From a virus, in the IMG/VR virus record IMGVR_UViG_3300048996_000109, positions 1-43,391 of that record: 43,391 bases of DNA; one strand, given 5' to 3'. Below, in pieces: positions 39,347 through 43,313 of the stretch. The translations under genes were made by a program, and so were the position numbers. How positions within the stretch are numbered: the first letter of the stretch is position 1; each line of letters starts with the position of its first letter. The notes below the pieces were generated by a model. That model saw nothing but the letters and a program-made list of their open reading frames with translations. It was not told the DNA's origin and ran no database searches.

Positions 39347-39619
39347 TTAGGAGCGGGCCGCGACGGCCTTACGCGCCAGCTCGGCGCGGGCCTCCGCCGC
39401 GTGACTGTCCTGCGACTCCAGCCACTGCTGGACCGTCGCGAGGTTGAAGCGGCGGATGCCGCCGGGCAGCCGCGCGAAGGGGCACCCCTTCTTCCGCCAC
39501 TCGTTGACCGTCCAGTTCGAGACGCCGTAGTGCGCCATCAACTGAGCGGTGGTGAGCAGGGGGGCGAGGCCGGCGGGCCTGAGGAGCTCGGTGCGCTCAG
39601 CGAGGGTCTGAGCTGGCAT
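39347..39619 (-). CDS. Excisionase-like MerR-type helix-turn-helix protein
   Basis: 90 residues. Contains the HTH_17/excisionase pattern LLTTAQLMAHYGVSNWTVNE, then WRKKGCPFARLPGGIRRFNL (about residues 20-62), the form typical of phage Xis proteins and small MerR-like regulators. A C-terminal helix is rich in Ala/Glu/Arg. It lies beside the Cro-like gene in the early leftward operon, opposite the integrase. A role as the excisionase is the simplest reading, not proven. Confidence 0.8.
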   Translation of the reverse strand: MPAQTLAERTELLRPAGLAPLLTTAQLMAHYGVSNWTVNEWRKKGCPFARLPGGIRRFNLATVQQWLESQDSHAAEARAELARKAVAARS

Positions 39620-39625
39620 GGGGGT

Positions 39626-39904
39626 TCACCTTTCTACTGTGTCAGTAGAAACTGAGGGCATGTCGAAGACGTCCTGGAGGGGTTCACCAAGGGCCGTAGC
39701 GACGAGCCATGCGGTACGCAGTCGGCACGTCTCGGCTGCGGTCTTGCCGCGGCCGGTGACCTTGACCACCGTCCCGAGACTCACACCTCGTCCACTGGCA
39801 TCTACCTCCCGAGTGCGGGCGGCAATTTCGGCCTGGCTGAGCTTTGAGCGCTTCATCGCCTCTCTGAGTGGCTTGCCCTTGCTCTTGCGGATGAGGTCAG
39901 TCAT
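39626..39904 (-). CDS. Cro-like XRE helix-turn-helix protein
   Basis: 92 residues. HTH helices in KLSQAEIAARTREVDASGRG and VSLGTVVKVTGRGKTAAETC. Leftward gene directly beside the divergent promoter region and so the natural Cro counterpart of the repressor candidate at 40146. Its last codons (V-S-T-D-T-V-E-R) coincide with the perfect operator palindrome 39631-39651, so the end of the gene doubles as a control site for the next gene. GAGG lies ~8 bases before the ATG. Confidence 0.78.
   Translation of the reverse strand: MTDLIRKSKGKPLREAMKRSKLSQAEIAARTREVDASGRGVSLGTVVKVTGRGKTAAETCRLRTAWLVATALGEPLQDVFDMPSVSTDTVER
39631..39651. promoter_or_regulatory. Operator O1, perfect TTTCTACTG palindrome
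   Basis: TTTCTACTG (39631-39639) and CAGTAGAAA (39643-39651) are exact complements around a 3-base centre TGT. It lies in the last codons of the Cro-like gene and 12 bases upstream of the excisionase-like start. The left arm and centre recur at 39959-39970. Confidence 0.8.
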
Positions 39905-39950
39905 GTGCGCCTCGTGCCTGTTGGGGACTGCGTGACACCTTGCGATGTCG

Positions 39951-39988
39951 TTGACACATTTCTACTGTGTCAGTGTTAGTGAGGTCAA
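39951..39988. promoter_or_regulatory. Divergent promoter and operator O2 of the lysogeny switch
   Basis: Rightward TTGACA (39951-39956) with a weak TGTTAG -10 at 39974-39979. Leftward TTGACC (39988-39983) with TAGAAA (39964-39959) and an 18-base spacer. Both cover TTTCTACTG-TGT-CAGTG (39959-39975), a near copy of O1 whose left half overlaps the leftward -10. A repressor here would block both directions. Confidence 0.72.
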
Positions 39989-40015
39989 GTGAGTGGCAGC
40001 ACGTTTCGGTGAGCA

Positions 40016-40045
40016 TTGGCGGGAATCGAAAGCGTGTTCTATGGT
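40016..40045 (+). promoter_or_regulatory. Rightward promoter candidate for the repressor
   Basis: TTGGCG (40016-40021), 18-base spacer, TATGGT (40040-40045). Transcripts from here would start near 40052 and have a ~95-base leader containing operator O3 before the ATG at 40146. Confidence 0.55.
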
Positions 40046-40111
40046 GGGCGCATATGCCAAGCCTGACGGCGCGTGATGGGGAGGTCGCGCGCTGCACGGC
40101 TTCGCGCCACG

Positions 40112-40139
40112 CTTCTACTTTCACTTGCAAAAGTAGAAG
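40112..40139. promoter_or_regulatory. Operator O3 / leader hairpin upstream of the repressor
   Basis: CTTCTACTTT (40112-40121) and AAAGTAGAAG (40130-40139) are perfect 10-bp complements around 8 bases. The TTCTACT half-site is shared with O1 and O2. It ends six bases before the ATG at 40146, and the ribosome site of that gene (GAAG) lies within the right arm, so an RNA hairpin could also control translation. Confidence 0.68.
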
Positions 40140-40145
40140 ATCCAC

Positions 40146-40532
40146 ATGCACTCTTACCCTGTGGACAACCAGGAGCGCACCGAAGATCTAGCGCAGCTTC
40201 TCGCTCGTCTCAAAGCGGAGTACGACGTCAACGAGACCGAGATCGCTGCCCGCATCGGCACGGCCGTCTCCACCGTCAACTCCTGGGCGAACCGCACGCG
40301 AGGCGGCAAGCGCGGCCCGAATATCGAAAAGCTGCGCGCGCTGGCCCGCGAGTTCCCCAAGTTCACCGAGGCCGAGGTCTTCAGCGCTGCGGGCCGCCAG
40401 TCCCCCGGCCCGCTCAGCCCTGACGGCGAGGAGCGCATCCTCGCCCTGTACCGGGGACTGACCGAAGAGCAGCGGCGCATGAAGGAAGTCGAGATGCGCG
40501 CCCTGAATGAGATGAACCGTACGGGGCAGTAG
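40146..40532 (+). CDS. Phage repressor candidate (HTH protein)
   Basis: 128 residues. An N-terminal XRE/Cro-CI-type helix-turn-helix spans about residues 13-55 (LAQLLARLKAEYDVNETEIA, ARIGTAVSTVNSWANRTRGG). The second half is helical (GEERILALYRGLTEEQRRMK), without a protease or LexA-type domain. It lies opposite the Cro-like gene with three related operator sites between and near them, which makes it the best candidate for the immunity repressor. The next region, 40533-40717, holds no clear gene, only an AT-rich stretch with TTGGT/ACCAA inverted words near 40618-40636. Confidence 0.8.
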   Translation: MHSYPVDNQERTEDLAQLLARLKAEYDVNETEIAARIGTAVSTVNSWANRTRGGKRGPNIEKLRALAREFPKFTEAEVFSAAGRQSPGPLSPDGEERILALYRGLTEEQRRMKEVEMRALNEMNRTGQ

Positions 40533-40717
40533 GGCAACCATCGGCTCGGCTCGCGAGTCTCTGCTAAACGGACCTGATCACTCAGCGTGAAGGTCACCTC
40601 AACAACATGTGCAACATTGGTCGATTATTTTACCAAGTGGAGGTACGGTCGATCGAAGGCCGATGCCCTCCCCCTTCGGCTCCCAGGTCCCGAATTGCCT
40701 GCGAACCGGGGGTATGC

Positions 40718-40966
40718 ATGTGTGTGCGCATTAGTCTCACTGATCCCGAATCCATTCCGGCCTTCGATGCCGATGCCAAGGTGATCAGACTCCCCCGCCA
40801 CCTGGAGCCAGCACAGACGGTCACACTCGTGCGCGCCATCCTTCGCGAACTCGTGGTCGCGCAACCGGAGTTGGGTGCAGTCTGCTGGTGCGGGGCACCT
40901 GTCGACATGATGCCCCGCGTACCTCACCAGCGGAGGAGTGAGCAGGTGGTTAAGCATGGGGCGTAA
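40718..40966 (+). CDS. Small conserved unknown protein before the integrase
   Basis: 82 residues from the ATG at 40718 with a weak GGGGG upstream. MCVRISLTDPESIPAFDADA, then RHLEPAQTVTLVRAILRELV, then LGAVCWCGAPVDMM. C-W-C-G may be a metal-binding or redox pair. Similar small proteins precede genes in many streptomycete elements. The stop overlaps the integrase start (ATG 40956) by 11 bases, so the two are probably translated together. Confidence 0.72.
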   Translation: MCVRISLTDPESIPAFDADAKVIRLPRHLEPAQTVTLVRAILRELVVAQPELGAVCWCGAPVDMMPRVPHQRRSEQVVKHGA

Positions 40967-42239
40967 GGCCTCCGAGAACCCACGCCAGATCAGGGCCAAG
41001 ACGTGCGGTTGCCACAAATGCATGGCCAAGTACCCGCCGGACGTACACGGCGAGCGGACCCGACGGCGCGACTGCATCGGCGCGTGGCAGGCCCGCTACC
41101 GCGACCCGACCGGGAAGCAGAAGGCGAAGAACTTTCCGATCGCCGACGGCGGCAAGAAGAAGGCCGAGGCGTACCTCGACGACATCCGCACCAAGGTCCG
41201 TAAGAGGACATACGGCGACCCCAAGCGCGGCGAGATCACCATGGGCCAGTGGTGGGACCTGTGGTGGGAGGCGCAGCCGGACCGCGCCGTCACCACGACC
41301 AACCGGAAACTGTCCAACTGGAACGCCCACCTCGAACCGAAGTGGGGCGAGTGGCGGCTGTGCGACCTGGAGTACATCGAGCTACAGGCGTGGATCACAC
41401 GGGAGGTGAAGGGCTACCACACCCGCAAGAAGGTCCACGAGGTGCTCAACTCCATGCTCCGCGCAGCAGTCAAGGATGGCCGGCGGATCCCGTTCAACCC
41501 GGCCGCCGACCTCGACATCGGCGAGCCGACGGTGAAGCACCCCGACGACGTCCGACCCCCGACGCGCGCTCAGGTGAAGCTGATCCTCCAGCACCTGCCG
41601 ACCTACTACCGGCCGTTGGTCGTGTTCCTCGAGCACACGGGAATGCGGTGGGGCGAAGCCACAGGCTTGCGGTGGGAGAACGTCGACCTGGAGGCGCACC
41701 ACCTCAAGGTGAAGGAAGTGCTCAGTGAGGACCACGGGCGCCTGTTCCGGAAGGACGCGCCCAAGTCCGTCGCTGGCTTCCGCACGGTGCCGGTCACGCC
41801 TGAGGCGGCCACCGCGGTGCAAGCAATGGTGGACAGGTGGCGGCCATCGAAGACAGTGACCCCCATCGGGGACGATCCGTACCAACTACACCCGGGCGAG
41901 CTCGTGTTCCGCGGCCCGCAGGGTGGCGTGCTCAGCCGGCACAACTTCCGCCGGGTGTGGGTGCCCGGGATCCAGGACGCGGGGATTGCCCGCCAGGTGA
42001 AGAACCGGGAGACGGGTCGGATGGAGTGGTGGCCGCGGGTCCACGATTTGCGGCACGTCTTCGCCACGTGGCTGAAGGAGCTGGGGATCGACGAGAAAGA
42101 CACGCAGACGGTGATGGGCCACGAGCGCGGGTCCAAGGTCACATGGATCTACCAGCACTCCCCCGAGGATGTGGCGGCCCAGGTGCGCGCTCGCATGGCG
42201 CCCGACGCCGAGGCTGTTCGAACATTGCGGGCTGTATGA
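40956..42239 (+). CDS. int: Tyrosine integrase
   Basis: 427 residues. N-terminal arm-binding region (GAWQARYRDPTGKQKAKNF) with a C-G-C-x2-C pattern near residue 17-22, a core-binding SAM-like domain (about 95-180, GQWWDLWWEAQPDR onward) and the catalytic domain. Catalytic residues: R231 (TGMRWGE), K270, H363-x-x-R366 (HDLRH), H389 (GHE) and the nucleophile Y399 (TWIYQH). I use ATG 40956; GTG at 40938 abuts its own ribosome site. The gene ends 160 bases before the tRNA-Arg-like core, placing int next to its own attachment site. Confidence 0.95.
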   Translation: MGRKASENPRQIRAKTCGCHKCMAKYPPDVHGERTRRRDCIGAWQARYRDPTGKQKAKNFPIADGGKKKAEAYLDDIRTKVRKRTYGDPKRGEITMGQWWDLWWEAQPDRAVTTTNRKLSNWNAHLEPKWGEWRLCDLEYIELQAWITREVKGYHTRKKVHEVLNSMLRAAVKDGRRIPFNPAADLDIGEPTVKHPDDVRPPTRAQVKLILQHLPTYYRPLVVFLEHTGMRWGEATGLRWENVDLEAHHLKVKEVLSEDHGRLFRKDAPKSVAGFRTVPVTPEAATAVQAMVDRWRPSKTVTPIGDDPYQLHPGELVFRGPQGGVLSRHNFRRVWVPGIQDAGIARQVKNRETGRMEWWPRVHDLRHVFATWLKELGIDEKDTQTVMGHERGSKVTWIYQHSPEDVAAQVRARMAPDAEAVRTLRAV

Positions 42240-42398: not shown

Positions 42399-42440
42399 CT
42401 CCTAAAGCGGGTGTCGCAGGTTCGAATCCTGCCGGGGGCA
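42399..42440 (+). other. attP core: 3' part of tRNA-Arg (CCT anticodon)
   Basis: The sequence reads as a tRNA from the anticodon loop CTCCTAA (42399-42405, anticodon CCT) through the 3' anticodon arm, variable loop, T-stem GCAGG/CCTGC (416-420 and 428-432 of this line), T-loop TTCGAAT, acceptor strand CGGGGGC (433-439) and discriminator A. The 5' half is missing: the bases before (ACTTT) do not pair with AGCGG. It is thus not a tRNA gene but the crossover identity block shared with a host tRNA-Arg. Confidence 0.85.
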
Positions 42441-42470
42441 CAGACCTGCTTGGCTGGTCAAAGCAGTAGA

Positions 42471-42502
42471 GAGGCCCCCCGTTTGTTCGAACGGGGGGCC
42501 TC
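42471..42502. terminator. Strong bidirectional hairpin after the core
   Basis: GAGGCCCCCCGTT (42471-42483) and AACGGGGGGCCTC (42490-42502) pair perfectly over 13 bp around TGTTCG. It shields the attachment site from transcription of the neighbouring segment. Confidence 0.75.
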
Positions 42503-42516
42503 CTTCGTGATCAAAG

Positions 42517-43079: not shown

Positions 43080-43313
43080 GTGCCGCGCTCCACTGAATCG
43101 CCAGACTGGGTCCTCGTCCGGCGACGGACCATCGGCGCGAAGATCCGCTCCGCCCGCGAGTACGCCAACCTCACTCAGCAGGCCGTCGCCCTGGCCATTC
43201 CTATGGACAGGGCCACCTACGCGCGCATCGAGCAAGGCCACGCATCGCCCCTCCTCGACACCCTCATCCGCATCGCCGACGCCCTCGACGTACCGCTCCG
43301 CGACCTCGTCTGA
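43080..43313 (+). CDS. Small XRE-family regulator
   Basis: 77 residues from GTG 43080. A compact Cro/CI-type helix-turn-helix fills almost the whole protein (TIGAKIRSAREYANLTQQAV, MDRATYARIEQGHASPLLDT, LIRIADALDVPLRDLV). No ribosome site precedes the GTG; a three-codon frame ATG-AGC-CAG-TGA stands at 43058-43069 just before it. The promoter carries an inverted repeat, so it is probably self-controlled. A second regulator next to the attachment site could control the accessory block or act in immunity. Confidence 0.85.
   Translation: MPRSTESPDWVLVRRRTIGAKIRSAREYANLTQQAVALAIPMDRATYARIEQGHASPLLDTLIRIADALDVPLRDLV

Follow-up and report, generated by a model that had tools for sequence, protein, structure and literature searches.

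Comparison of a phage lysogeny switch with its relatives suggests that each of its two helix-turn-helix (HTH) regulators has operators of its own and that the repressor is translated from a leaderless mRNA, an arrangement that we consider likely. The window, that is, the whole stretch of DNA analysed, is a viral record of 43,391 bases. A Xis-like and a Cro-like gene lie on its leftward strand, and an HTH repressor gene, a small gene and a tyrosine integrase gene follow one another on the rightward strand. Gene order and control sites are common to OnionKnight, VWB, mu1/6 and about 60 IMG/VR or genome loci; on sequence grounds, this region controls the choice between lysis and lysogeny in a temperate Streptomyces phage of the VWB / OnionKnight / mu1/6 type. 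The relatives comprised 62 distinct control regions from Streptomyces/Kitasatospora phage loci, or 53 after dropping Cro-like proteins that were >90% identical. Identity of the window repressor to its relatives was 55-61% for VWB and OnionKnight, and 42-45% for mu1/6.

The Cro-like protein (39626-39904, leftward; 92 amino acids) matched a cro-like family (phrog_14639, 1.4e-34), and its predicted recognition helix spans residues 43-50. Its Foldseek matches, to XRE-type repressors, were weak, all with E of 0.001 or more, and a PDB sequence search with the Cro-like profile gave no match. The Xis-like gene (39347-39619, leftward), the next member of the leftward operon after cro, is of the HTH_17/MerR type (Pfam HTH_17, 2.1e-6; phrog_66 excisionase, 4.4e-11). 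In VWB the xis position beside cro is occupied by gp3 (L003:1907-2140), annotated as a terminase small subunit; this name looks like a misannotation, since the window homologue fits an excisionase better than a terminase. The prophage repressor (40161-40532, rightward; 123 amino acids, GTG start) has a predicted structure that is helical, with the recognition helix at residues 36-43, and in the AlphaFold models of both proteins (pLDDT 90.2 for Cro-like, 83.1 for the repressor) the recognition region is the second helix of the helix-turn-helix. Pfam and the predicted structure gave only weak HTH matches for the repressor, and no protease or self-cleaving S24 domain. The integrase (40938-42239, rightward; PF00589, 3.4e-16) lies 3' of the repressor in the same direction, and the small gene between them (40715-40966) is conserved in OnionKnight (phrog_22170, 1.3e-20). 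Downstream of the integrase, a sequence resembling the 3' half of a tRNA (GGTTCGAATCC, 42402-42441) probably serves as attP, and a terminator-like inverted repeat, strong and rich in GC, comes after it (42474-42504). Past the attP-like site lies a second, typical HTH_3 regulator (77 amino acids, 43080-43313), whose relative place matches that of OnionKnight gp29.

Three palindromes, O1 to O3, had been read in the original prediction as related operators of this switch. All three are real, but they do not form one family. O1 (39631-39651, TTTCTACTGTGTCAGTAGAAA) is, as had been described, a perfect palindrome with 9-bp arms and a 3-base centre, placed within the last Cro-like codons, and it holds the half-sites TTTCTAC, GTGTCA and GTAGAA. 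The sequence is of dual use, as it also specifies the C terminus of Cro (..STDTVER). Two C-terminal Cro columns showed some of the strongest associations with the O2 triplet. O1 further overlaps the Shine-Dalgarno sequence of the Xis-like gene (GAAAGG), a feature that had gone unnoticed; in the relatives this Shine-Dalgarno forms a duplex with a median of -8.0 kcal/mol. O2 (39959-39979) has 16 bases exactly in common with O1 (TTTCTACTGTGTCAGT), and a count of this sequence through the window with up to 3 mismatches gave 3 occurrences, including the reverse of O1, where 0.06 were expected. In full, O2 extends over 39952-39979 as TGACAC / TTTCTAC / GTGTCA / GTGTTA, and includes a second, overlapping palindrome (TGACAC-9-GTGTCA), also new to this analysis. 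A weight matrix built from the relatives scored O2 at 48.3 bits and O1 at 47.2 bits, with O3 at -1.9 bits and the next non-overlapping site in the window at 1.4 bits. O1 and O2 are thus far above chance and unique in the window. A search of the window for additional O1/O2-like sites (stoperators) gave none above 6.4 bits, and the best of these were overlaps of O1 and O2 themselves.

Both sites keep their places in the relatives, where O1 overlaps the end of cro together with the xis Shine-Dalgarno, and O2 precedes the start of cro by about 50 nt. O2 covers a leftward cro promoter (39959-39988) with a -10 of TAGAAA (39959-39964), an 18-bp spacer and a -35 of TTGACC (39983-39988), and the corresponding columns of the relatives are well kept (T in 98% in the -35; 86-100% over TAGAAA). 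Promoter motifs of S. coelicolor have the forms NTGACC and TANNNT (PMC4895711), and a scan for consensus promoters listed none of the promoters proposed here, as expected with actinobacterial hexamers. O2 had been placed under divergent promoters; it overlaps the leftward cro promoter alone, and the rightward promoters are elsewhere. The TTTCTAC common to O1 and O2 is better explained by the sequences that it overlaps, namely the leftward -10 in O2 (the reverse of TAGAAA) and the xis Shine-Dalgarno in O1.

The half-sites of O1 and O2 have the form GTnnnA and are specific to each phage. In the window they read GTGTCA and GTGTTA or GTAGAA rightward, with TGACAC leftward in O2, and other phages have GTCACA, GTCGAA, GTTGAA, GTGGAA, GTAGCT and others. 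Within a phage, the half-sites of O1 and O2 agreed at 3.49 of 4 positions, against 1.78 +/- 0.15 for permuted partners, and 0 of 20000 permutations reached the observed agreement; the middle triplet was identical in 37 of the 53 loci, across nine different triplets. Such co-variation from phage to phage is the pattern of one binder whose specificity has changed repeatedly. The helical phasing of O1 and O2 was considered as evidence of looping and dropped, as the spacings (321-355) differ by steps of about 12 that arise from codon insertions in cro and lend it no support.

We compared the sites with the recognition helices by partial Mantel tests on 51 loci, in which the helix of the other protein and the rest of both proteins served as controls and relatedness was controlled in part. 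The distance between O1/O2 triplets followed the repressor HTH (r 0.37, p 0.00025), as opposed to the Cro HTH (r 0.05, p 0.09). The Cro helix type SPATVGRL, for example, pairs alike with GTCACA, GTCGAA and GTTGAA, and the repressor helices differ between these classes. Since the triplets track the recognition helix of the repressor rather than the Cro-like one, the repressor is most probably the protein for which O1 and O2 serve as operators. In OnionKnight, gp33, the Cro-like protein, is annotated as immunity repressor, and gp32 only as an HTH protein (L002:3314-3622 and L002:3891-4250); the co-variation suggests that the two roles are reversed relative to the annotation.

O3 (40112-40139) is of a different kind. 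It had been described as having the same half-site with a longer centre, and the arms CTTCTACTTT-8-AAAGTAGAAG are indeed exact, but by its matrix score it does not belong with O1 and O2. Its arms CTTCTAC/GTAGAAG are almost constant while O1 and O2 take many classes, and its centre holds CTTG. The first T of the TTG in this centre lies 35-37 nt before the in-frame start in 53/53 loci, and the start codon (GTG in 47 loci, ATG in 6) is found 19-22 nt after O3, again in 53/53. In the window, a -35 of TTGCAA (40125-40130) in the O3 centre, an 18-bp spacer and a -10 of CACTCT (40149-40154) make up a rightward repressor promoter (40125-40154); in the hexamer whose last base is at -7 from the start, 98% of the 53 loci have T at this base and 68% have A at -11. 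A Shine-Dalgarno sequence is absent upstream of the repressor start, where pairing to the 16S tail attains -5 kcal/mol in 17% of loci, compared to 24% of shuffled sequences, 100% of loci for cro and 85% for xis. In OnionKnight and others, a stop codon closes the repressor frame just upstream of the GTG. The conserved geometry of the -35 and the start, the lack of a Shine-Dalgarno and the closed frames together indicate that O3 encloses the -35 of the repressor promoter and that transcription very probably begins at GTG 40161, which gives an mRNA with no leader; about 21% of primary transcripts in S. coelicolor are leaderless (PMC4895711). Two parts of the original prediction are revised by these data. 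The repressor had been taken as 40146-40532, but the ATG at 40146 is not conserved in the relatives, and the start is moved to GTG 40161. O3 had also been thought to cover the ribosome site of the repressor, and the start in fact follows it at a distance, with no Shine-Dalgarno there.

We propose the Cro-like protein as the candidate binder of O3. In the partial Mantel tests the O3 arms gave r 0.17 (p 0.067) with the Cro HTH and r 0.002 with the repressor HTH, a modest comparative support that comes from few changes, and a hunt for variant O3 arms that could sharpen the comparison yielded no new independent change. At one locus, L046, the repressor helix is of the window type, but the Cro helix and O3 (CTTCCAC) both resemble those of mu1/6. 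There is a smaller but appreciable chance that the protein on O3 is instead a host factor, or else the repressor, which would then control its own promoter through half-sites spaced differently. The near-invariance of O3 across very different phages is what a site for a host factor would show, and the association with Cro at this p value is suggestive. Against these readings, of the 66 matches to the O3 pattern that were new, 62 lay beside a repressor of this family; the repressor HTH varies and O3 does not; and in L046 the form of O3 goes with the Cro helix.

Sharing of O1-O3 by both proteins with differing affinity, as in lambda, towards which the original prediction leaned, appears unlikely. 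TTCTAC/GTAGAA half-sites do occur in all three sites, the O3 arms of the mu1/6 clade and of L009 resemble O2 half-sites, and a weak association between O3 and O2 half-sites was seen (85 of 20000 permutations). However, O3 remains CTTCTAC while O1 and O2 use at least nine other triplets, its score is far from the 47-48 bits of those sites, and Cro helices do not track O1 or O2. The idea of two HTH regulators with different operators is upheld by conservation and co-variation, and that of a half-site preference shared between them is not, given the phage-specific GTnnnA of O1 and O2 and the constant O3. Binding of the repressor to O1 and O2, and of Cro to O3, remains our preferred reading.

A second rightward promoter (40016-40045) is predicted between O2 and O3, with a -35 of TTGGCG (40016-40021), an 18-bp spacer and a -10 of TATGGT (40040-40045); the TAnnnT columns of this -10 hold T, A and T in 87%, 91% and 85% of the relatives. 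Its -10 is overlapped by the right half of a LexA-like (SOS) box, TCGAAAGCGTGTTCTA (40026-40041), that departs twice from the full consensus; in 48 of 53 relatives, no fewer than 9 of the 11 specified positions are kept. The LexA motif of S. venezuelae is tCGAAC-N4-GNNCGa (PMC9380542). The box, which the original prediction did not include, is a probable host SOS (LexA) site. Expression from this promoter of a small Tum-like antirepressor peptide, beginning at ATG 40054, seems quite improbable. An ATG does lie 8-13 nt after the LexA box in 29 of 53 loci, many of the reading frames have 27 codons, and coliphage 186 has a LexA-controlled antirepressor (PMC7708051), but the frame is not kept, with early stops or losses in many loci, the window included, and the differences show no signal of codon position (1125/1051/1085).

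The predicted leader of the transcript from this promoter carries, 17 nt upstream of O3, an RNA hairpin (40067-40094, rightward strand) that is conserved in 48 aligned relatives, with the loop GGGGAG in 43 of the 48 rows. Pairing is kept in 90% of cells across its 11 pairs, 8 of which have changes on both sides; covariation of the hairpin and O3 counted together was above that of all shuffles and all slid versions. Within the hairpin, 66 G-U cells stood against 25 A-C cells (p=2e-5, with cells that are not independent), an excess that favours RNA of the rightward strand. A search of the hairpin region in Rfam gave no match at E up to 1. The LexA-like box and the hairpin may together be an input for SOS induction. 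A choice between DNA and RNA control had been suggested for O3, and the covarying hairpin lies elsewhere; that O3 is itself an RNA hairpin hiding the repressor start is very improbable, for although it folds well as RNA (z -3.74) just upstream of the gene, RNA made from the repressor promoter would have the GTG at its 5' end and so lack O3, the -35 sits in the O3 centre in all relatives, and 2 G-U against 5 A-C cells of 480 give no signal of wobble pairing.

In the mechanism that we propose, the repressor would bind O2 and mask the leftward cro promoter at its spacer, -10 and start region. It would also bind O1, which is within cro at a distance of 328 bp downstream and overlaps the xis Shine-Dalgarno, keeping the operon of cro, xis and early genes off. 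O1 could act as a roadblock or as a looping partner. On failure of the repressor, Cro would be made and, at O3, whose arms flank the -35, would stop new repressor synthesis as lytic growth begins. As the repressor has no protease domain, an SOS signal, if any, must enter outside it, and the LexA-like promoter would be the natural place. This promoter lies about 110 bp upstream of the repressor promoter, and its RNA would start with the conserved hairpin and enter the repressor gene. Since such a transcript would have no ribosome site for the repressor and yet would run towards the integrase gene, we infer promoter interference and a supply of integrase. DNA damage would free the promoter, and its transcript would cross the repressor promoter and carry int, with the repressor untranslated, so that immunity falls. 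An SOS route of this kind, in which loss of LexA yields a readthrough mRNA, headed by a structured leader, that serves for translation of the integrase and not of the repressor, and excision enzymes rise without repressor cleavage or an antirepressor, is put forward tentatively, as a proposal more doubtful than not. A LexA-controlled promoter that yielded translated repressor would oppose induction, and the transcript could alternatively be an establishment transcript or a regulatory RNA. Mitomycin C failed to induce the Streptomyces prophage Samy (PMC11302927), which may be of another type.

The open papers searched say little about the immunity regions of Streptomyces phages, although VWB and mu1/6 serve for integration vectors. 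The comparison predicts pairs of proteins and sites, corrects the repressor start and provides, for about 50 phages, a GTnnnA operator code for immunity groups. By pointing to a probable LexA site and to a leader RNA with covariation, it also opens SOS induction in this group to direct tests. In the open literature we found no paper on the mu1/6 or VWB repressor, and neither the combination of features, nor the operator code, nor the covarying leader seems to have been described there; a study of mu1/6 or VWB may exist among the subscription journals, most of which were outside the scope of the search.

The closest systems are OnionKnight, VWB and mu1/6, which have the gene order of the window, homologous Cro-like, repressor and Xis-like proteins, O1-O3 at equivalent places and, in most, a LexA-like box; their records annotate none of these control sites. 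The O1/O2 half-sites of OnionKnight read GTAGCT and differ from those of the window, VWB has GTGTCA operators, and leaders of the mu1/6 type are shorter and without the GGGGAG hairpin. Separate operators, a leaderless repressor mRNA and LexA-controlled phage promoters are known in kind. In the part of the PY54 study available to us, this telomere phage is described as having a leaderless repressor mRNA, as proposed here, and a Cro that shuts off the repressor gene via a single site at the leaderless promoter; unlike in the window, its cro mRNA is leaderless too, and that part reports no LexA box (PMC4488713). We do not claim homology between the PY54 proteins and those of the window. The lambda immunity region (CI/Cro, PRM) resembles the window in its divergent cro and repressor promoters and in a Cro expected to shut the repressor promoter, but the window regulators seem not to share operators, and the window repressor has no self-cleaving domain. 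As predicted for the window, p95-tum of coliphage 186 takes its induction signal through a phage promoter with a host LexA box, but 186 makes an antirepressor protein (PMC7708051), whereas the window has no conserved coding sequence after the box. The overall architecture is a variant of that of lambda and PY54, and the LexA box with its leader is the novel element.
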